Source of the DNA: Terrimonas ferruginea DSM 30193 | Lineage (GTDB): Bacteria > Bacteroidota > Bacteroidia > Chitinophagales > Chitinophagaceae | Direction: 5' to 3' | Length of the DNA: 64,000 bases | NCBI RefSeq assembly: GCF_000425585.1 | Contig: NZ_AUDS01000010.1 | Coordinates: 124,001 to 188,000, forward strand | Part shown: positions 43,628 through 56,851 of the stretch, piece after piece | Layout: every line of letters starts with the position of its first letter | Numbering within the stretch: the first letter of the stretch is position 1 | Program-made: the position numbers and the translations under genes | The notes under the pieces: model-generated | Database searches by the model: none | Told to the model about the DNA's origin: nothing | The model's input: only the letters and a program-made list of their open reading frames with translations

Positions 43628-44824
43628 TTAAAACAGATGTACTACGTAATACACGCAGGCGGCAATAAGCGCGCTGATAGGAATAGTAAGTACCCATGCC
43701 CAGAGGAGGTTGATGGTAACGCCCCAGCGTACGGCCGAGAGGCGTTTGGTCGCGCCCACACCCATGATGGCTCCTGTAATGGTATGCGTGGTACTTACCG
43801 GTATTTTCAGCGATTCCGTGATGAAGAGGGTCAGGGCACCGGCTGTTTCAGCGGCCACCCCTTCAAACGGTGTTACTTTGGTAATGCGCGTACCCATGGT
43901 CTTTACAATCTTCCAGCCGCCGCTCATGGTGCCCACGGCAATGGCCGCATAACAGGCGAGCGGTACCCATACGGGCATTTCGCTGAAACTGCTGATTTGT
44001 CCGCCGGCGATCAGGGCTGCGGTAATGATGCCCATTACTTTCTGCGCATCGTTACCACCGTGGCCCACACTGAAAATGGCGGAAGAAACGAGCTGCAGTC
44101 TTTTAAACCAGATATTGGCTTTGTGTGCATTCAGGTTGCTGAGGAAAAGCGAGAAAGAAGCCATGATCAGCAGGATAGAGGCCAGCAGTATCCATTTAAA
44201 ATTCTGCGAATGGAATATAACTTTCAGTACATAAGAATCGTAATGACTTTTCAATTGGGCAGGGTCACGTTCCAGCACCAACGCCAGGAAGATGAATACC
44301 GCGATGATGACGCCCATCGAAAACAGCTTTGGTCCCCACCCTTTGCGGAAAGAATACATGAACCAGAGTGAAATGATAAAGGCCATGAGCATACCGATCA
44401 ACGGTGCGAGGAAGATGAACAGGGCGATCTGGATAACGGGCCCTGAGTTGATCGATTGAAAACTGCCGGTATGTACCAGCGCCGCACCGATGAGGCCACC
44501 GATGAGCGTATGCGAGGAAGAAGAGGGAATACCTCTCCACCAGGTAAATAAATTCCAGATAATGGCCGCTACCAGTCCCGAAAAGATCACTTCAAGGGTG
44601 ACAAAATCTTTTTTCACGGTTTTGGCAATGGTATCTGCCACACCATGGTCTTTGAAGATAAAGAAGGCAACGAAGTTGAAGAGCGCAGCCCAGAGTACGG
44701 CCTGAAAGGGGGTGAGTACTTTGGTGGATACTACCGTGGCAATGGAGTTGGCTGCATCATGAAAACCATTGATGTAGTCGAATACAAGGGCCAGTACAAT
44801 AATCGCAATCAGGAAAGAAGCCAT
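43628..44824 (-). CDS. pit: inorganic phosphate transporter, PiT family
   Basis: Low-affinity, proton- or metal-phosphate-coupled transporter of 398 residues with about ten membrane helices. The duplicated PiT signature is visible as FDYINGFHDAANSIATVVSTKVL near the N-terminus and SVGHGGNDAQKVMGIITAALI in the second half, plus TGAIMGVGATKRLSAVRWGVTINLLWAWVLTIP. It follows a DUF47 gene by 49 bp, the usual Pit accessory pair. I see no Pho-box-like repeats in front of this operon, which fits constitutive low-affinity uptake. Confidence 0.95.
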   Translation of the reverse strand: MASFLIAIIVLALVFDYINGFHDAANSIATVVSTKVLTPFQAVLWAALFNFVAFFIFKDHGVADTIAKTVKKDFVTLEVIFSGLVAAIIWNLFTWWRGIPSSSSHTLIGGLIGAALVHTGSFQSINSGPVIQIALFIFLAPLIGMLMAFIISLWFMYSFRKGWGPKLFSMGVIIAVFIFLALVLERDPAQLKSHYDSYVLKVIFHSQNFKWILLASILLIMASFSLFLSNLNAHKANIWFKRLQLVSSAIFSVGHGGNDAQKVMGIITAALIAGGQISSFSEMPVWVPLACYAAIAVGTMSGGWKIVKTMGTRITKVTPFEGVAAETAGALTLFITESLKIPVSTTHTITGAIMGVGATKRLSAVRWGVTINLLWAWVLTIPISALIAACVYYVVHLF

Positions 44825-44873
44825 AAATTAGTTTATACGTGAGCAAACGGCTGGTTCTGTAGGGAAAACCGGA

Positions 44874-45521
44874 TCAGGCGTATTTGATAATAATACTTTC
44901 AATGACATTGCTGGCGTCTTCGCACTTGTCTGTCACGATTTCCATTACCTGGTATATTTCACGTTTTTTGATCACTTCTTTGGCGTCGGGTTCGGTAGCG
45001 AAGAGGCGCTCGATGCTCATGTCGAAAATATCGTCGGCCTGGTTTTCGATGCTGTTGATCTTTACCAGGGCTTCCGTGATGTTGCGCATATTTTTCATGT
45101 TGCGCAGCTCGCGAACCGCGATGCGGATCTGCTGTGCGCCCTGCTCGATCAGTTCGGCCATTTTCTGCATGCCCATGTCGTTGGGGTTCACGCGGTAGAA
45201 GTTGATCTTTTTCGCAGAAGCATATATATAGTCGGCGATATCGTCGAGGGAGGTGGCGAGGTAGTGAATGTCTTCGCGGTCGAAGGGCGTGATGAAGTTG
45301 CGGCCAAGCTCGGTAAATACACTGTGTGTGAGTTCGTCGTTGGCATGCTCGAGGTCTTCGATCACTTTGATGAGGGCGGCTCTTTTGTCAAAATCAGTTT
45401 CCGCTACGACTTCTTTCATCACTACGCCCATTTTGGCCACGTTGTCAGCCACTTGTTCAAACAGTTCGAAGAAGATGCGGTTCTTCGGCATAAAGATCTT
45501 GAGGAAAGAATTGAGGCCCAT
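44874..45521 (-). CDS. DUF47-family PhoU-like protein
   Basis: Helical cytoplasmic protein of 215 residues of the DUF47/PhoU-domain family, which accompanies PiT transporters and is thought to modulate them. Features: NSFLKIFMPKNRIFFELFEQVADNVAKMG, ALIKVIEDLEHANDELTHSVFTELGRNFITPFDREDIHYLATSLDDIADYIYASAKKI, and EIYQVMEIVTDKCEDASNVIESIIIKYA. It is the first gene of the unit with PiT. A -7-like TATTTTCG on the minus strand (45553-45546) lies about 25 bp before the ATG. Confidence 0.93.
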   Translation of the reverse strand: MGLNSFLKIFMPKNRIFFELFEQVADNVAKMGVVMKEVVAETDFDKRAALIKVIEDLEHANDELTHSVFTELGRNFITPFDREDIHYLATSLDDIADYIYASAKKINFYRVNPNDMGMQKMAELIEQGAQQIRIAVRELRNMKNMRNITEALVKINSIENQADDIFDMSIERLFATEPDAKEVIKKREIYQVMEIVTDKCEDASNVIESIIIKYA

Positions 45522-45719: not shown

Positions 45720-45797
45720 GTAACATTGCCGTAACATTCAGCTCACAATTGCTTAACGTGGCCGTAACAGTGTGGTAACCTGCAACCGCAACCTTTG
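45720..45797 (+). promoter_or_regulatory. Pho-box-like promoter P1 (six 11-bp repeats)
   Basis: Six hexamers exactly 11 bp apart: GTAACA (45720), GTAACA (45731), CTCACA (45742), TTAACG (45753), GTAACA (45764), GTAACC (45775). A -7-like AACCTTTG (45790-45797) follows, with TTTG starting 19 bp after the start of the last hexamer. No -33 TTG is present, so an activator could replace it. The ATG of the receptor gene is 16 bp further on. Comparable in layout to the PhoP box of Bacillus (TT(A/C/T)A(C/T)A every 11 bp) and the PhoB box of Escherichia coli. Confidence 0.75.
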
Positions 45798-50066: not shown

Positions 50067-51254
50067 TCAGGGCCGGTAAGCGTATGCAATTTCGTAAGGC
50101 TGTTTGCGGAGCTGCGGCAACCAGTCACCGAGTGCAAGATCATCCTGCTGCGGTGTTGGTTCACACATGGAATATTTTTCACCCTTGTATTCGATCGTCT
50201 TTCCAACGGGTTTGTCAAACTTCACGGCAATAGTCACGTGGTGAGGAAAGCTCAGGACCAGCATCGGCAGGTTATAAATTTCTTTTACCAGGTAAAAGAA
50301 AAGCGCCGCGCGGTCGTCGCAATCACTCTTATCATTGAGCAATGTCTGCTCCGGTGTCAATCTTTTTTCTGCACCGAACTGATCGGTGTCGGGTTCAAAC
50401 AAAAAAGCATAACGCGTAAACCGCATCAGGTAATCGACGCCGTCGCGTACACGCATGTGTTGCACATTTTTGCGAAGCAAAGGAATGAGGCTGCTGTACG
50501 TTTCGCGGCTTAAAGGAATATTGAAATAGGCTGCGTAATCAACTACGGGATAATTGGCAAAAATGTTTTTCACCTGTTGATTAATCTTCACTTTGAAATG
50601 ATAATCCTGCTGGTAATAGCGGAAGCTGAGTTCTTTTTCCTGGTAATCCGCGTCGTTGAAACCCGGCAGGCGGGTAATGCGGTAAGAAAAACCATTTACG
50701 GCTTCCGGTATTTTTAGCTCAACAGGTGTAAAGAATTCGGTTGTGGGATCGATGCCTTTGTAATCGTGAAAGTTGAGGCATACATACTGGCGCCCATTGA
50801 CGATACGGCTGGGAATATTGTAAATGTGTTCGTCGCTCTGCACATAAAACAGCATGCGCGACCCGGAGGTGGCCAGTATGGCATCGTAACCACATTTGCT
50901 GAGCAGGTACCATTTGTATAAGGTGTAACGCAGGTAGTCGTCTTCTTTTGGGCTGATGGCCTGTGCCGTGCGTCTGATGAGTTGATAGAACAACCAGTCG
51001 TCGGCCTGGTGCGTGTTTTTGTAATCTTTCAGCATCTCGATCATGGAAGCATAAGGTGCCGGATCGAGTTGCTGGTAAAATGTAGTGATGTTGCCGGAGG
51101 AAAGTGTACCGGTGAATTCGCTTCGCGAAGTTTTGTTGAATGCAAACTCAACGGGATCGCCGTAAAAATCAAAATGTACTTTTTCCTGCTGACCGTATAG
51201 GGGACCGGAAAGGCACAGGATTAACCAGGGAAGTATGAGGCGTTGTAAGTTCAC
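50067..51254 (-). CDS. exported transglutaminase-like protein
   Basis: Protein of about 395 residues with an N-terminal signal (LILPWLILCLSGPLYGQQ). The C-terminal part has a transglutaminase-like (papain-fold) core: Cys in LLNDKSDCDDRAALFFYLVKEI, His in LSFPHHVTIAV, followed by an acidic residue near the end (EPTPQQDDLALGDW). The N-terminal two-thirds are beta-rich. Bacteroidota proteins of this type are usually annotated only as transglutaminase-domain proteins. No ATG is present at the right place; GTG 51254 is the most likely start, with TTG alternatives upstream. Convergent with the lipoprotein operon. Confidence 0.78.
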   Translation of the reverse strand: MNLQRLILPWLILCLSGPLYGQQEKVHFDFYGDPVEFAFNKTSRSEFTGTLSSGNITTFYQQLDPAPYASMIEMLKDYKNTHQADDWLFYQLIRRTAQAISPKEDDYLRYTLYKWYLLSKCGYDAILATSGSRMLFYVQSDEHIYNIPSRIVNGRQYVCLNFHDYKGIDPTTEFFTPVELKIPEAVNGFSYRITRLPGFNDADYQEKELSFRYYQQDYHFKVKINQQVKNIFANYPVVDYAAYFNIPLSRETYSSLIPLLRKNVQHMRVRDGVDYLMRFTRYAFLFEPDTDQFGAEKRLTPEQTLLNDKSDCDDRAALFFYLVKEIYNLPMLVLSFPHHVTIAVKFDKPVGKTIEYKGEKYSMCEPTPQQDDLALGDWLPQLRKQPYEIAYAYRP

Positions 51255-51284
51255 AGGCAATACAATACTTACAAGGTACAAAAA

Positions 51285-51301
51285 TTAACAATAAGGTAAT
51301 A
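51285..51301. repeat. copy of half a Pho-box element
   Basis: TTAACA (51285) and GTAATA (51296), 11 bp apart; the 16 bases from 51285 match 51494-51509 at 15 of 16 positions. No -7 element follows, so it is not a promoter. It and the true promoter flank a repeat island. Confidence 0.6.
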
Positions 51302-51321
51302 TTAAATCTTGAGATGGGAGG

Positions 51322-51487
51322 TTTAAGGTATAAAAGGTTTAAGGTGTAGGGTGTAGGGTGTAGGATAAGGTGGCCGGTAGTAAGTAGTAAGTAGTAAGTT
51401 ATAAGTAATGAGTCATAGAGATCATTGACGATTCACCATTGACCATTGACGATTCACGATTGACCATTCACTCCCGATACTTCGGGA
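51322..51487. repeat. repeat island: GGTGTAG, GTAGTAA and ATTGACC heptamers, TCCCGA dyad
   Basis: 7-bp periodic DNA: GGTGTAG three times near 51341-51362, GTAGTAA three times near 51373-51396, and seven in-phase units ATTGACG/ATTCACC/ATTGACC type at 51424-51472, ending in a hairpin TCCCGA-TACT-TCGGGA (51472-51487). With the promoter and small RNA that follow, it fills most of the 387-bp gap 51255-51641. Confidence 0.85.
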
Positions 51488-51493
51488 TCACAA

Positions 51494-51549
51494 TTCACAA
51501 TAAGGTAATCATGGGCTAACGTTGTCCTAACAATCATATAGGACATTTA
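51494..51549 (+). promoter_or_regulatory. Pho-box-like promoter P2 (four 11-bp repeats)
   Basis: TTCACA (51494), GTAATC (51505), CTAACG (51516) and CTAACA (51527), each 11 bp apart, then a -7-like GACATTTA (51542-51549) whose TTTA starts 19 bp after the start of the last hexamer. No coding gene lies downstream on this strand; only about 90 bp separate it from an intrinsic terminator. Confidence 0.65.
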
Positions 51550-51554
51550 CCTCA

Positions 51555-51643
51555 GCTCTTTTCTACATTGTGTTCCAATTGCAGTACAAGCAATTTCTCA
51601 TGCAGTTGCCATCCCGGAAGGACAGTGCCGGGGTGGTTTTTTT
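51555..51643 (+). ncRNA. candidate phosphate-controlled small RNA
   Basis: Predicted transcript of about 90 nt from promoter P2 to a strong terminator. It contains a first hairpin AATTGC-AGTACAA-GCAATT (near 51576-51594) and ends in the 9-bp terminator stem with seven T. No ATG or GTG frame of useful length with an upstream ribosome site is present. The 3' end just touches the stop codon of the convergent glycosyltransferase gene (51642-51644), so the RNA ends tail-to-tail with the plcP-glycosyltransferase mRNA. Start and size are predictions. Confidence 0.55.
51609..51643 (+). terminator. intrinsic terminator of the small RNA
   Basis: Stem CCATCCCGG (51609-51617) with CCGGGGTGG (51628-51636), one T-G pair, loop of ten bases, then seven T (51637-51643). 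There is no T-run on the minus strand, so it serves plus-strand transcription. Confidence 0.85.
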
Positions 51644-52643
51644 ATGCCTGTACGGGAACGGGCGCCGCAGCAAAAAGATGTGCCAATGCCTGCGGAATGC
51701 TTTGGCTATAGTCTTTCTTAATGATGGGAGCATTTTGCAGCCAGTTATATACGGTTGCCTGAAAGTTATTATCGACCTGCTGCAGACAATGCACACCCAT
51801 TTTTTCCAACGCGGCTGCATTACATTGCTGCTCGTATTGACTGCGGATGGGAACAGACAAAATCTTCTTACCGAGATGCAATGCCTCTGCCGGCGTTTCA
51901 AATCCGCCACCGGTGATCAATCCATGACAACCAATCATACTGGTTGAAAAAGCTTCACGGCTTACGGGAAGCAAACGCATGTTATTTACTTTCTTTTCTT
52001 TCGATATCTGTCCGCAAAAGATTTCAAAACGGCGGTCGCTGAATTGCTCAAACAAACGGATCAATTGCGGTTCGCAATAGGAGGGGAGGTATACGGTGAT
52101 ATAACCGAGATCTTCGGGTTGCGCTTCCAATATATCGCGACGAACAACGGGCGTGAAAATAAAATCTTCATAGGATTCAAAATGCAACCCGATATAGCGG
52201 CTTGCCTTTGCATAGTTCTTCAGGATCCATTCACCTGTGCGGTTGCGTGCGGAAGGACGCGGCGTATTGGCAGAAATGAAACTCGCCTGGTGCCCGAACT
52301 GCACCGATGGTACACCGCGGTTTGCACAGGCAGCAGCGGTGATATAATCAAAATCGTTGATCACCAGGTCGTATTCGTTTACCGGCAATTCACGGATTTC
52401 TCGGCGGATGCGCAAAGGCTTGATGCCTTTCATGATCTGCCAGTAGTCGAGTCCGCCGTTGCAGTTGTAATACAGGCTCATTCCTTTGCTGCGGTATTTC
52501 ACAGGTACATCAAGCGACAGCGTACTGTTGCCACCGCTGAGAAAAAAATCTACCGTTCCGTATTCACGGAGATAAGGGTATAGTTCCATGGCGCGGCTGA
52601 TGTGTCCGTTACCTGTTGCCTGTACTGCGTAAAAGATTTTCAT
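51642..52643 (-). CDS. GT28/MurG-like glycosyltransferase, probable diacylglycerol glycosyltransferase
   Basis: Protein of 333 residues with a GT-B fold of the UDP-sugar transferase type: N-terminal MKIFYAVQATGNGHISRAMELYPYL with the GxGH loop, and the C-terminal donor site CHGLITGGGFETPAEALHLGKKILSVPI. It lies downstream of a PlcP-like phospholipase gene on the same strand, 130 bp apart. In several bacteria PlcP and a glycosyltransferase together replace phospholipids by glycolipids when phosphate is short; the same role is inferred here. The gap between the two genes is filled by repeats, one array starting 3 bp before the ATG, so no Shine-Dalgarno sequence is seen. Confidence 0.82.
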   Translation of the reverse strand: MKIFYAVQATGNGHISRAMELYPYLREYGTVDFFLSGGNSTLSLDVPVKYRSKGMSLYYNCNGGLDYWQIMKGIKPLRIRREIRELPVNEYDLVINDFDYITAAACANRGVPSVQFGHQASFISANTPRPSARNRTGEWILKNYAKASRYIGLHFESYEDFIFTPVVRRDILEAQPEDLGYITVYLPSYCEPQLIRLFEQFSDRRFEIFCGQISKEKKVNNMRLLPVSREAFSTSMIGCHGLITGGGFETPAEALHLGKKILSVPIRSQYEQQCNAAALEKMGVHCLQQVDNNFQATVYNWLQNAPIIKKDYSQSIPQALAHLFAAAPVPVQA

Positions 52644-52646
52644 ATA

Positions 52647-52777
52647 GTGAATGGTGAATGGTGAATCGTCAATCGTGAATCATTCCTGGTTCGTGTCTTC
52701 ACGAACCAGCCTCCACGGGCTGTTTCATTTTCACATCTACACATCCCGCCTCCGGCGGGATGTGTATACATTTTCAC
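52647..52777. repeat. repeats inside the plcP-glycosyltransferase gap
   Basis: Five heptamers (GTGAATG, GTGAATG, GTGAATC, GTCAATC, GTGAATC; 52647-52681), the palindrome CTGGTTCGTG-TCTT-CACGAACCAG (52686-52709) and the ACATTT/GC element with CCCGCCTCCGGCGGG (52726-52777), which runs into the last codons of plcP. Confidence 0.85.
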
Positions 52778-53625
52778 ACCGCTCTTGAAGACTGCGCGAG
52801 TGAATGGAGATAAATCGCTATTTCGCTCGTGATTACTTCGGGACGATCGGGCGCAGGATGCGGACGTTCATATTTCATGATAGCCGGATCGTGTTGATAC
52901 AATTGCCATTCATTATCACAATACTCCAGCGCCGTCATGTGTTCTACCCAATCGCCGGCATTGAGGTAGGTAACCGAACCTTTACCGGTGTGGATTTCGC
53001 GATGTTGCGGTTCATGAATATGTCCGCAAATCACGCAATCATATTTCTTTTCAATAGCCAGTTCAGCCACCATCTGTTCAAATTGATCCACCTTCACAAT
53101 GCGTTTGTGAAACTGGTGCATGAGTTTTTTGGAAAGCGATACTTTCTCATAACCAAAAGAACGCATCAGCTTATTCATCATCTTGTTAAAGCCGAGCAGA
53201 ATGGCGTAACCATTGCTGCCGAGTTTGGCCCAGAACCTTGCCTGGCTGCTGGTGGTGTGATCGAATACATCGCCATGAAAGATCCAGGTCATCTTGCCAT
53301 TGATCTCGATAACGATCTTATCGGTCAGTTGAAAATTACCCACGTGCAGATCGGAATAACGGCGTAATGTTTCATCGTGATTGCCGGTGATATAGATCAC
53401 GCGTGTGCCGCGGGTAAGCAGGAGCAGAATTTCCTGCACGATGGCAATATGATGCGGAGGAAAATAATGTTTACTGAATTGCCAGCCGTCGATAATATCT
53501 CCATTGAGTACAAGCAGCCTCGGCTCTATACTCCGGAGATAACTGAGGCACTCGCGTGCCCGGCAGGCATAGGTGCCGAGATGAATGTCCGACAGCACCA
53601 CCACATCCACAGGACGTCTTTGCAT
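52774..53625 (-). CDS. plcP: PlcP-like metallophosphoesterase (phospholipase C type)
   Basis: Calcineurin-like phosphoesterase of 283 residues. Motifs: LSDIHLGTYAC (Asp 13, His 15), NGDIIDGW (Asp 43), ITGNHDETLRRY, HGDVFD, ICGHIHEPQHREI and YLNAGDWVEHMTALEY. The GDIIDGW and N-GDWVE blocks separate PlcP from LpxH-type UDP-diacylglucosamine hydrolases, with which it is often confused. PlcP removes the head group of phospholipids during phosphate starvation to give diacylglycerol. It is preceded by four tandem Pho-box-like repeats and followed by a glycosyltransferase gene, which together support this role. Substrate is not proven. Confidence 0.82.
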   Translation of the reverse strand: MQRRPVDVVVLSDIHLGTYACRARECLSYLRSIEPRLLVLNGDIIDGWQFSKHYFPPHHIAIVQEILLLLTRGTRVIYITGNHDETLRRYSDLHVGNFQLTDKIVIEINGKMTWIFHGDVFDHTTSSQARFWAKLGSNGYAILLGFNKMMNKLMRSFGYEKVSLSKKLMHQFHKRIVKVDQFEQMVAELAIEKKYDCVICGHIHEPQHREIHTGKGSVTYLNAGDWVEHMTALEYCDNEWQLYQHDPAIMKYERPHPAPDRPEVITSEIAIYLHSLAQSSRAV

Positions 53626-53638
53626 AAGAACGGTTTCA

Positions 53639-53694
53639 TAAAGTTTCCATTTTCATATAAACCCTGTATTACGGCAATGTTAAGGATGTGTGAT
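53639..53694 (-). promoter_or_regulatory. Pho-box-like promoter P3 (four 11-bp repeats)
   Basis: Read on the minus strand: ATCACA (53694), TTAACA (53683), GTAATA (53672), TTTATA (53661), each 11 bp apart, then a -7-like AAACTTTA (53646-53639) with TTTA starting 19 bp after the start of the last hexamer. The plcP ATG is at 53625. Confidence 0.7.
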
Positions 53695-53709
53695 TTACCG
53701 CAGGAAGGC

Positions 53710-55033: not shown

Positions 55034-56083
55034 TCAGTCCTTCCTTGTATCCAGTGTAAACCCAATCGTAGTGCCTACATCTTCCCGGCTGCGGACGTGA
55101 ATGGTTTGACCGTGGGCTTCAATGATGTGTTTGCAGATCGCGAGGCCGAGACCGCTTCCCGTTACGTCGAGGCTGCGGCCTACATCGGTCCGGTAGAAAC
55201 GCTCGAAAATGCGGCCTAAATGTTTTTCAGGAATACCGATGCCGTCGTCGCTTATTTCGATGAGGATATGTTTTTCATCGGTGTTATACATACTGGCCGT
55301 AATAGTGCCGTTGATCTTGCCGTATTTGATGGAGTTCTCGGTAAGATTGAGCAATACCTGGCGGATCTTTTCTTTGTCGGCAAATACCGTGAGCGGCGAT
55401 TCACATCCTTTCTTGATCACACAACGGATCTTTTTCGGCACCGCCATGATGGAAATACTTTCAAACGTTTCGCGCACGAGATCCTGGATCACAAAATTCT
55501 GTTTGAAAAGATTGAGTTCTCCGCGTTCCAGGCGGGAGATTTCGTCGAGGTCATTTAACAGGTTGGTCAATCGCTCTACGTTCGTAGCCGTTTTTTCCAG
55601 GAAGCGGCGGTTTACTTCACCATTTTCCAAAGCGCCGCCCAGCAAGGTGTCTACATATCCCTGTATCGCAAATACAGGCGTTTTAAATTCGTGCGAAAGG
55701 TTTTGCAGAAATTCTTTCCGGAATTGTTCATTGGCCCGGAGCAATTCCACTTCCTGCTTGTTCTGACGTGCCCATTCTTCCACGTCCTCACGCACCTCGT
55801 CAATGCTTTTACGGGGTAAGATGTATTTGTAATAGGTCTCTTCGCGTTTGGTGGCTTTTGTCTGGTAAATGAATTTGTAGATCAGTTTGATTTTGCGGTA
55901 GATGAACCGTTCCAGTACAAAGGAAATAAGCACATACCCACCGCTTGCGAGCAGGAAGAAGGATAACAACACCGGTTGCCAGCGGCGTTCAATAATAAAA
56001 ACCAGTAAGGTAATTGGTATGGCCAGGGCAAGGGCCGTAAAAAAAGCAAGCTGACGCGGGGTCAGGTTTTTGGTAGAGAACAT
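55034..56083 (-). CDS. phoR: sensor histidine kinase, PhoR-like
   Basis: Inner-membrane histidine kinase of 349 residues. Two N-terminal membrane helices (residues about 12-30 and 37-57) with almost no periplasmic loop, as in PhoR, a linker of about 60 residues, then the phosphoacceptor NLSHEFKTPVFAIQGYVDTLLGGA (His 131) and the ATPase domain with N box LLNLTENSIKYG, G1 DDGIGIPEKHLGRIFERFYRTD and G2 GSGLGLAICKHIIEAHGQTI. No PAS domain is seen. The response regulator gene lies 30 bp upstream. PhoR identity is supported by the surrounding phosphate genes, not proven. Confidence 0.82.
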   Translation of the reverse strand: MFSTKNLTPRQLAFFTALALAIPITLLVFIIERRWQPVLLSFFLLASGGYVLISFVLERFIYRKIKLIYKFIYQTKATKREETYYKYILPRKSIDEVREDVEEWARQNKQEVELLRANEQFRKEFLQNLSHEFKTPVFAIQGYVDTLLGGALENGEVNRRFLEKTATNVERLTNLLNDLDEISRLERGELNLFKQNFVIQDLVRETFESISIMAVPKKIRCVIKKGCESPLTVFADKEKIRQVLLNLTENSIKYGKINGTITASMYNTDEKHILIEISDDGIGIPEKHLGRIFERFYRTDVGRSLDVTGSGLGLAICKHIIEAHGQTIHVRSREDVGTTIGFTLDTRKD

Positions 56084-56113
56084 ACCTGCAATTTACTGTA
56101 AAAGCGTGCAGGT

Positions 56114-56791
56114 CTATACTTCAAACTTGTAGCCTACACCTTTAACCGTGGTGATACAATCGATACCCAGTTTCTGGCGGATTTTGCGGATGTGAACATC
56201 AATGGTGCGGTCGCCTACGATCACTTCATTTCCCCAGATTGCATTGAGTATTTCATTGCGGAGAAATACACGGCCGGGTTTCAGTGCCAGCAGGTACAAC
56301 AGTTCGAATTCTTTTTTGGCCAGTACCAGGTCGTTTCCGTCCACCTGCACCACGAATTTCTCGGGATCGATTACGATATTTTCGATGCGCAGTACGCGGC
56401 CATCGGGTTTCTGAATGCGGCGGAAAAGAGCATTCACCCGGCTCAGAAACACTTTGGGACTAACAGGCTTGCTTACATAATCATCGGCACCGGTTTCCAG
56501 TCCTTTTACCTGTGTGGTTTCGTCATTCAGGGCGGTGAGGAACATGATGAGAGTGTCTTTGAAAGCCGGCTGGGCGCGGAGGATCTGGCAGACTTCAACG
56601 CCGGTCTTGCGGGGCATCATTACGTCGAGCACTACCAGGTCGGGTTGGGTGCGTTTGGCTTTTTCAATCGCTTCATCACCATCTTTTGCCGTAATTACCT
56701 CGTATCCTTCACTCGAGAGATTATACTTCAGGATTTCCAGGATATCCGGCTCATCATCTGCGATCAAAACTTTTCGGCTCTTGGCTTCCAT
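56114..56791 (-). CDS. phoB: response regulator, OmpR/PhoB type
   Basis: DNA-binding response regulator of 225 residues. Receiver domain with the acidic pocket IADDEPD (Asp 12, 13), phosphorylated Asp 56 in LVVLDVMMPRKTG, T in FLTALND and Lys in YVSKPVSP; winged-helix domain with VLAKKEFELLYLLALKPGRVFLRNEILNAIWG and VGDRTIDVHIRKIRQKLG. The start ATG 56791 gives the usual length. It is cotranscribed with the kinase gene. It would be the natural protein to bind the 11-bp repeats found at five nearby promoters. A TAGGTTTG -7 element lies upstream on the minus strand (56814-56807). Confidence 0.85.
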   Translation of the reverse strand: MEAKSRKVLIADDEPDILEILKYNLSSEGYEVITAKDGDEAIEKAKRTQPDLVVLDVMMPRKTGVEVCQILRAQPAFKDTLIMFLTALNDETTQVKGLETGADDYVSKPVSPKVFLSRVNALFRRIQKPDGRVLRIENIVIDPEKFVVQVDGNDLVLAKKEFELLYLLALKPGRVFLRNEILNAIWGNEVIVGDRTIDVHIRKIRQKLGIDCITTVKGVGYKFEV

Positions 56792-56806
56792 GCAGTAAAA
56801 TTTGCG

Positions 56807-56814
56807 CAAACCTA
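56807..56814 (-). promoter_or_regulatory. -7 element of the two-component operon
   Basis: TAGGTTTG on the minus strand, an exact TAnnTTTG, 15 bp before the response-regulator ATG. A CCCCAT/ATGGGG hairpin (56816-56835) lies directly upstream. The 11-bp repeats at 56852-56879 are too far for the spacing seen at the other promoters. Confidence 0.55.
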
Positions 56815-56851
56815 CCCCCATTTTTCAGCATGGGGAAATATGCGCTGGTCG

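Follow-up and report, generated by a model that had tools for sequence, protein, structure and literature searches.

This study focused on an intergenic stretch within a 64,000-nucleotide section (the window) of the genome of Terrimonas ferruginea DSM 30193, which very probably holds a genuine small RNA gene of the Pho type. The predicted RNA appears to belong to a new small-RNA family by the measure of Rfam 15, which returned nothing for the window or for 20 member loci at the gathering threshold, and nothing for 51282-51700 at E values up to 10. A first-pass annotation had described four repeats spaced by 11 bp, a -7 element, an internal hairpin and a terminator at 51494-51643, and a reading of the sequence confirmed all of these. 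The elements of the locus are as follows.

51494..51531, + strand: Pho-box-like activator array, four direct repeats at 11-bp spacing (alignment with other copies; matrix score 21.7)
51542..51549, + strand: -7 element GACATTTA (sequence reading and alignment; common form in relatives CATCTTTR)
51555..51643, + strand: predicted small RNA of about 89 nt (start predicted 5-6 nt past the -7 element; homologues)
51577..51595, + strand: 5' hairpin, stem AATTGC/GCAATT at 51577-51582/51590-51595 (predicted fold)
51594..51607, + strand: conserved linker TTTCTCATGCAGTT, the proposed seed (12-mer conservation)
51608..51643, + strand: intrinsic terminator (covariation)

The cores of the four repeats (TCAC at 51495, TAAT at 51506, TAAC at 51517 and TAAC at 51528) lie exactly 11 bp apart. 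Pho-regulon promoters of the PhoB type are made of 11-bp direct repeats, and the -7 consensus of Bacteroidota is TAnnTTTG; the stretch 51494-51549, in which an array of such repeats stands at a constant spacing from the core promoter, has the layout of a PhoB-type promoter. The predicted transcript runs from a small hairpin through a 14-nt U/C-rich linker to a GC-rich terminator, the stem of which (CCATCCCGG/CCGGGGTGG, 51609-51617/51628-51636) is followed by seven T at 51637-51643. This T-run overlaps the stop codon (51642-51644) of the convergent glycosyltransferase gene, which agrees with the earlier description of an RNA of about 90 nt placed tail-to-tail with the plcP-glycosyltransferase mRNA. 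The absence of a usable coding frame, also claimed at that stage, held for the window transcript, which contains no complete ORF. The locus thus has its own promoter and intrinsic terminator, without a shared coding frame, as is characteristic of a small RNA gene.

Both hairpins were present in the minimum-energy fold of the window RNA. The whole RNA was only slightly more stable than shuffled sequences (-25.5 kcal/mol, z -1.64, 16/200 shuffles as good), so that the structure of this single sequence is little proof. Folding of many relatives gave 5' hairpins that differed in sequence and size. The terminator was not listed in a generic terminator scan of the window, because its 10-nt loop is larger than the 3-8 limit of that scan. 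The loop (51618-51627) often carries the motif GGACAG, as in the window, the copies of g51, g91, g86 and g101, and some named MAGs, and is possibly a second contact site. Upstream of the promoter, at 51330-51490, are low-complexity tandem words (e.g. GTAGGGTGTAGG, AGTAGTAAGT), together with the short palindrome TCCCGATACTTCGGGA.

Conservation and distribution of the RNA

The window's own genome gave one match (E up to 0.001). A blastn search of 147 family genomes with the stretch produced matches in 35, the best of those outside the own genome being L008-L012 (E 3e-8 to 6e-5) and L002, from the same genus, which span the linker and terminator; many weaker matches were terminator tails or chance. 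A first model, comprising the linker and terminator of four copies, was run on 294 family genomes, and 26 of 30 loci, including that of the window, proved to be true copies, in a set that leaves out about 100 weaker rows, mostly unopened. The other four loci (L058, L060, L062 and L064) were bare terminators and were dropped. An alignment of 28 copies was made from the 26, together with L002 and L017. Across it, 98.7% of terminator cells were paired, both sides changed in 7 of the 9 pairs, and the covariation score was reached by none of 500 shuffles, with slid or shuffled controls far lower. The linker 12-mer TTCTCATGCAGT was identical in 21 of the 28 copies, altered forms occurring chiefly in genus g86, plus g101, g93 and g34, although this conservation is partly a selection effect, as the models were seeded on the linker. 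Linker-less copies would escape detection, since both models contain it.

A refined model was applied to 394 family genomes and matched 56 at E up to 0.003, of which 46 were accepted after sequence reading. Accepted copies therefore occur in 46 of the 394 sampled genomes and 15 of 101 genera of the Chitinophagaceae. Seven of the 56 were not counted after inspection (G025, G073, G117, G217, G257, G554 and G595; some linker-like, none with the array), and G024, G041 and G579, the sequences of which were uninspected, also stand outside the 46. One linker-like stretch without the array, L103 (G029), was left out, and G001, missed by model R2, was included via blastn alone. The first-pass annotation had staked its reading on relatives keeping the promoter, the hairpins and the terminator, and they do keep them, the 5' hairpin being more variable than the remaining parts. 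An order-wide search of 298 genomes gave matches (E up to 0.02) in 26, of which 13 do not belong to the family. For each of these 13, one or more matches were read (G309:C125 was left out), and those read proved to be terminators, coding sequence or chance similarity, with no copy among them.

When public genomes were scanned with a sequence pattern, carriers emerged in Terrimonas pollutisoli, Pinibacter aurantiacus, Pinibacter soli and many Chitinophagaceae MAGs. By reading, 20 of 27 pattern matches in named genomes were judged real (including L073, which lacks the array), and seven were unrelated (L067, L071, L074, L085, L088, L089 and L092). A distant-mode search of a plasmid collection found no match.

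Several copies showed individual features. G162 has a diverged second copy (L068:2890-3107, minus strand), which lies about 4.7 kb away from the first and carries an array of its own (score 21.7), and in G263 two contigs each hold one of a pair of near-identical copies (L054, L271). In alignment A6, the 5' end (TTCTTTC...GTCGTTC) and hairpin loop (TTAGCA) were strongly conserved in eight copies (L036, L043, L045, L046, L053, L059, L069 and L249). The G001 copy (L002:1500-1630) has a terminator-like stem with a very long loop, its match spanning 128 bases compared with about 56. At L073:1050-1150, and near position 1500 of L095 and L110, a linker and terminator-like stretch directly follows a coding gene, with no array seen; the gene ahead of the linker specifies a homologue of the 455-aa protein described below in L073 and, by eye, a SusD-like protein in L095. 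This arrangement is possibly a 3'-UTR-derived form, or chance.

Promoter type and genomic neighbourhood

The small RNA gene is surrounded by genes related to phosphate metabolism, two operons of which carry the same kind of promoter.

43628..45521, - strand: PHO4 phosphate transporter and PhoU_div protein (Pfam)
45734..45797, + strand: the same promoter array, ahead of the TonB receptor/455-aa protein operon (matrix score 21.7)
50067..51281, - strand: 404-aa protein (without Pfam match)
51642..52643, - strand: glycosyltransferase (Glyco_trans_1_3), convergent neighbour (Pfam)
52774..53625, - strand: metallophosphoesterase, PlcP-like (Pfam Metallophos)
53639..53702, - strand: the same promoter array, ahead of the plcP-glycosyltransferase operon (matrix score 18.8)
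55034..56821, - strand: histidine kinase and response regulator, PhoR/PhoB-like (Pfam HisKA/HATPase_c, Response_reg/Trans_reg_C)

Anchoring succeeded for 28 of 32 upstream regions, and almost all of the anchored ones align gap-free, with four repeats followed at a constant spacing by CATCTTTR or one of its variants. A promoter matrix of 64 columns was trained on 20 copies from other genomes, excluding the window. When the window was scanned with it, three strong matches appeared, at 45734 (21.7), at 51486 for the small RNA (21.7), and at 53702 on the minus strand (18.8), bearing out the earlier claim of a small RNA gene with the promoter type of the adjacent Pho genes. Register-shifted overlaps of the strong arrays scored 13.8 and 2.7, the next site in the window 1.2, and the site before the divergent PDE gene just -0.4. 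The maximum in ten simulated 64-kb windows was 6.2. Across the whole genome, a strict two-repeat pattern matched ten times; two matches scored above 20, both in the window cluster, and the other eight scored -8 or less. Within 20 named loci, the matrix also marked plcP (L075, L076, L082, L083), PDE (L075) and TonB starts (L079, L087, L090), although not in every locus holding such genes.

The refined model contains only linker and terminator, so the promoter plays no part in it. An array scoring at least 9.3 nevertheless accompanied 41 of the 42 matches that it ranked highest (E up to 6.4e-5), the figure being confined to these strongest matches because the array served in accepting weak ones. 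Among the 25 of these 42 that lay outside the matrix training set, some being closely related to training copies, 24 had the array, the exception being L054 (2.0). Motif and neighbourhood together point to the PhoB-like protein encoded next door as the probable regulator of the small RNA.

Homologues of Pho-cluster genes adjoin 48 of the 51 copies tested (27/28, 16/18 and 5/5), the three copies without one in the examined stretch being L043, L258 and L250, with L096 and L097 outside the count. Homologues of the 404-aa protein (50-65% identity) adjoin the small RNA in many loci. The 455-aa protein of the TonB receptor operon is likewise without a Pfam match. The metallophosphoesterase gene is presumably plcP, and the two-component pair presumably PhoR/PhoB. 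In Flavobacterium johnsoniae, Pi depletion induces PlcP as well as three products of the PhoBR operon, a TonB receptor, a lipoprotein and a glycosyltransferase (PMC8115612); domain content and gene order suggest that the genes of the window cluster correspond to these.

Proposed pairing of the linker with start codons

The reverse complement of the linker, AACTGCATGAGAAA, resembles a start region, and near-complements were sought across carrier and non-carrier genomes. They were not commoner overall in carriers, with 155 in 84.6 Mb (170 matches in 16 genomes, less 15 own copies) versus 154 in 76.7 Mb of non-carriers; a control with the pattern read backwards gave fewer matches in carriers (63) and non-carriers (53) alike. 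Among sites containing ATG, 23 of 97 in 14 carriers were gene starts (a long ORF beginning at the site, with an upstream in-frame stop) versus 4 of 80 in 12 non-carriers (Fisher p 6e-4), and two patterns with their five upstream bases shuffled gave 3 of 44 in the same carriers (p 0.019 against 23/97), although these tests treat sites as independent and several genomes belong to common genera. The shuffled controls drew 30 loci apiece from among 98 and about 119 matches, and 44 of the loci drawn keep the ATG. When only a long ORF was demanded, the figures became 26/97, 5/80 and 4/44, and the two carrier batches agreed (15/59 and 11/38). The carrier set omits the hand-picked L208, the site G095:C783, and the partly listed G086 and G162. 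From the non-carrier set, three listed sites (one in G023, two in G192) were omitted and G002, G021, G026 and G027 excluded; 'non-carrier' here means without an accepted model match, and G192 belongs to genus g34, as does the accepted carrier G125.

Pfam searches of 20 of the 23 carrier starts identified TonB receptors, PA-domain peptidases, M14 and M1 peptidases, a GH9, beta-lactamase-fold hydrolases, one redoxin-like and one FecR-like protein, a response regulator and a methyltransferase, with two lacking a match. Judged by eye, 17 of the 23 have N-termini resembling signal peptides, and 3 of the 4 non-carrier starts also look exported; the theme is partly inherent to the pattern, since ATGAGAAA and ATGAAAAA spell MRK/MKK, usual beginnings of signal peptides. 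A recurring candidate, which we take to be an M28 peptidase, shows only the PA domain in Pfam. This secreted peptidase was rejected as a conserved target, as most orthologues, including that of G000, lack a match, and the candidates of G160 and G084 (L189, L202) differ from the peptidase orthologues found in those genomes. No conserved target was found.

Target prediction at translation starts, as proposed in the first-pass annotation, thus had a divided outcome: starts were enriched in carriers, but none was found in the window's own genome, where 0 of 5 opened ATG-containing sites were gene starts, nor in the Pho cluster, where gene starts of the window and of 20 named loci showed no near-complement (11-mer, one mismatch). 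A duplex scan of 43 gene starts in the window made no Pho gene conspicuous (best two -13.8, median -7.0 kcal/mol). The annotation had also offered two roles for the RNA, repression of phosphate-rich products and tuning of the lipid remodelling operon, and neither was supported, given the lack of near-complements at these gene starts. The convergent partner changes between genera, which speaks against an antisense RNA dedicated to the lipid operon. Folding of 52 copies gave the linker a moderate accessibility, with a mean unpaired probability of 0.36-0.84 by position; for the copy in the window, the 3' half of the linker was predicted to be paired.

The explanation that on balance seems the probable one is a small RNA that acts in trans within the phosphate-starvation response, activated by PhoB and pairing with start codons. 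Under low phosphate, the PhoB-like regulator would activate the gene, giving a transcript of about 89 nt with the linker UUUCUCAUGCAGUU as its seed. The seed would pair across the start codons (complement AACUGCAUGAGAAA, read ...AUG AGA AA) of mRNAs for exported proteins, with SusC-type receptors and secreted peptidases as candidates, and block their translation, so that synthesis and export capacity would shift to phosphate scavenging. The start-codon mechanism taken by itself is close to evenly balanced, leaning slightly to the doubtful side, because the positional enrichment stands against the null results and the non-independence of the sites.

Alternative explanations and known small RNAs

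A Pho-induced, trans-acting RNA might instead use its linker to bind a protein, or a few targets of another kind, rather than start codons. A strongly conserved linker with no conserved target and no overall enrichment of near-complements would suit this, and Bacteroides small RNAs bind the protein RbpB (PMC11697453), but it leaves the enrichment at start codons in carriers unaccounted for, and is considered rather unlikely. That the RNA tunes lipid remodelling as a cis-antisense regulator, acting at the 3' end of the glycosyltransferase-plcP mRNA, is suggested by the tail-to-tail arrangement and the T-run over the stop codon. Across 28 loci the directly convergent neighbour is the glycosyltransferase in 11, phoR in 5 and other genes in the remainder. 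The linker is nevertheless unchanged where phoR is the neighbour, and also in L053 and L059, whose glycosyltransferase gene precedes the small RNA in the same direction, which makes an antisense role very improbable.

A small protein gene, or a leader or attenuator, might be read into the ATG within the conserved linker and into the same-direction gene found downstream of the small RNA in L051 and L059. Against this, the longest complete ORF in 53 predicted transcripts ranged from 0 to 33 codons and no ORF sequence was common to them, except among near-identical relatives, as the first-pass claim of a missing coding frame would have it; regarding a riboswitch or attenuator, the window has no same-strand gene directly downstream, its next gene being convergent, and relatives are mixed. 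Both forms of this reading are highly improbable. Since no ORF is shared and the convergent neighbour varies, the linker is explained neither by a peptide nor by a single, constant antisense partner. Chance repeats and a hairpin in junk intergenic DNA could be argued from the low-complexity sequence just upstream and the modest z-score of the fold, but 15 genera hold copies, which covary and have a promoter array in common, and the matrix score lies far above the simulated maximum, leaving this explanation with hardly any credibility.

A trans-acting RNA that pairs at start codons would have precedent in the phylum, since two small RNAs of Bacteroides thetaiotaomicron, GibS and FopS, act in such places: FopS pairs near start codons in SusC-type mRNAs, and the sites bound by GibS are translation initiation regions (PMC11697453). 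The RNA described here resembles both in its conserved seed and intrinsic terminator, the seed being single-stranded in GibS and FopS, and resembles FopS in having SusC-type mRNAs among its candidate targets (PMC11697453). In that account, FopS differs in carrying its seed in a single-stranded 5' stretch, whereas here it lies between the 5' hairpin and the terminator, and in responding to bile salts from a canonical promoter, in contrast to the Pho-type array (PMC11697453). FopS is stated there to be deposited in Rfam (PMC11697453), and the null result with Rfam 15 separates the two families only insofar as that release includes it.

Small RNAs of phosphate stress are already reported from proteobacteria and an archaeon. 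The archaeal RNA, Haloferax sRNA132, is said to be tied to phosphate starvation, with a phosphate ABC transporter operon as putative target (PMC6560208), and EsrL of E. coli is reportedly induced by phosphate under a claimed control by PhoB, a trait that the present RNA would share. PhoB binding upstream of esrL was not detected (PMC10294691). In Sinorhizobium meliloti, which belongs to another phylum than the Bacteroidota family described here, many small RNAs change with phosphate stress, and a PhoB-induced small RNA acting on rpoS of E. coli is mentioned in the same sources (PMC8829014, PMC2573895); four S. meliloti candidates were raised by phosphate starvation, with no conserved PhoB site evident (PMC2573895). 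No Pho-controlled or phosphate-stress small RNA of Bacteroidota was found in the open-access literature, a scope outside which most subscription journals and preprint servers fall.

More tentatively, the RNA might be a family-wide arm of the Bacteroidota Pho response, in which a PhoB-driven seed lowers a species-specific and shifting set of exported proteins and so clears the envelope for scavenging. SusC-type receptors, secreted peptidases and hydrolases would be lowered through a seed complementary to 'AUG AGA AA', and the seed would be held while targets are gained and lost through mutation around start codons. The promoter matrix, the covariance model, the proposed seed, and the isolates Terrimonas pollutisoli, Pinibacter aurantiacus and Pinibacter soli are resources for testing these proposals. 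A conserved small RNA within a cluster of PhoR/PhoB, lipid-remodelling and TonB-receptor genes offers a genetic entry to post-transcriptional control in the family, and points to an unstudied RNA part of the phosphate response of the Chitinophagaceae.
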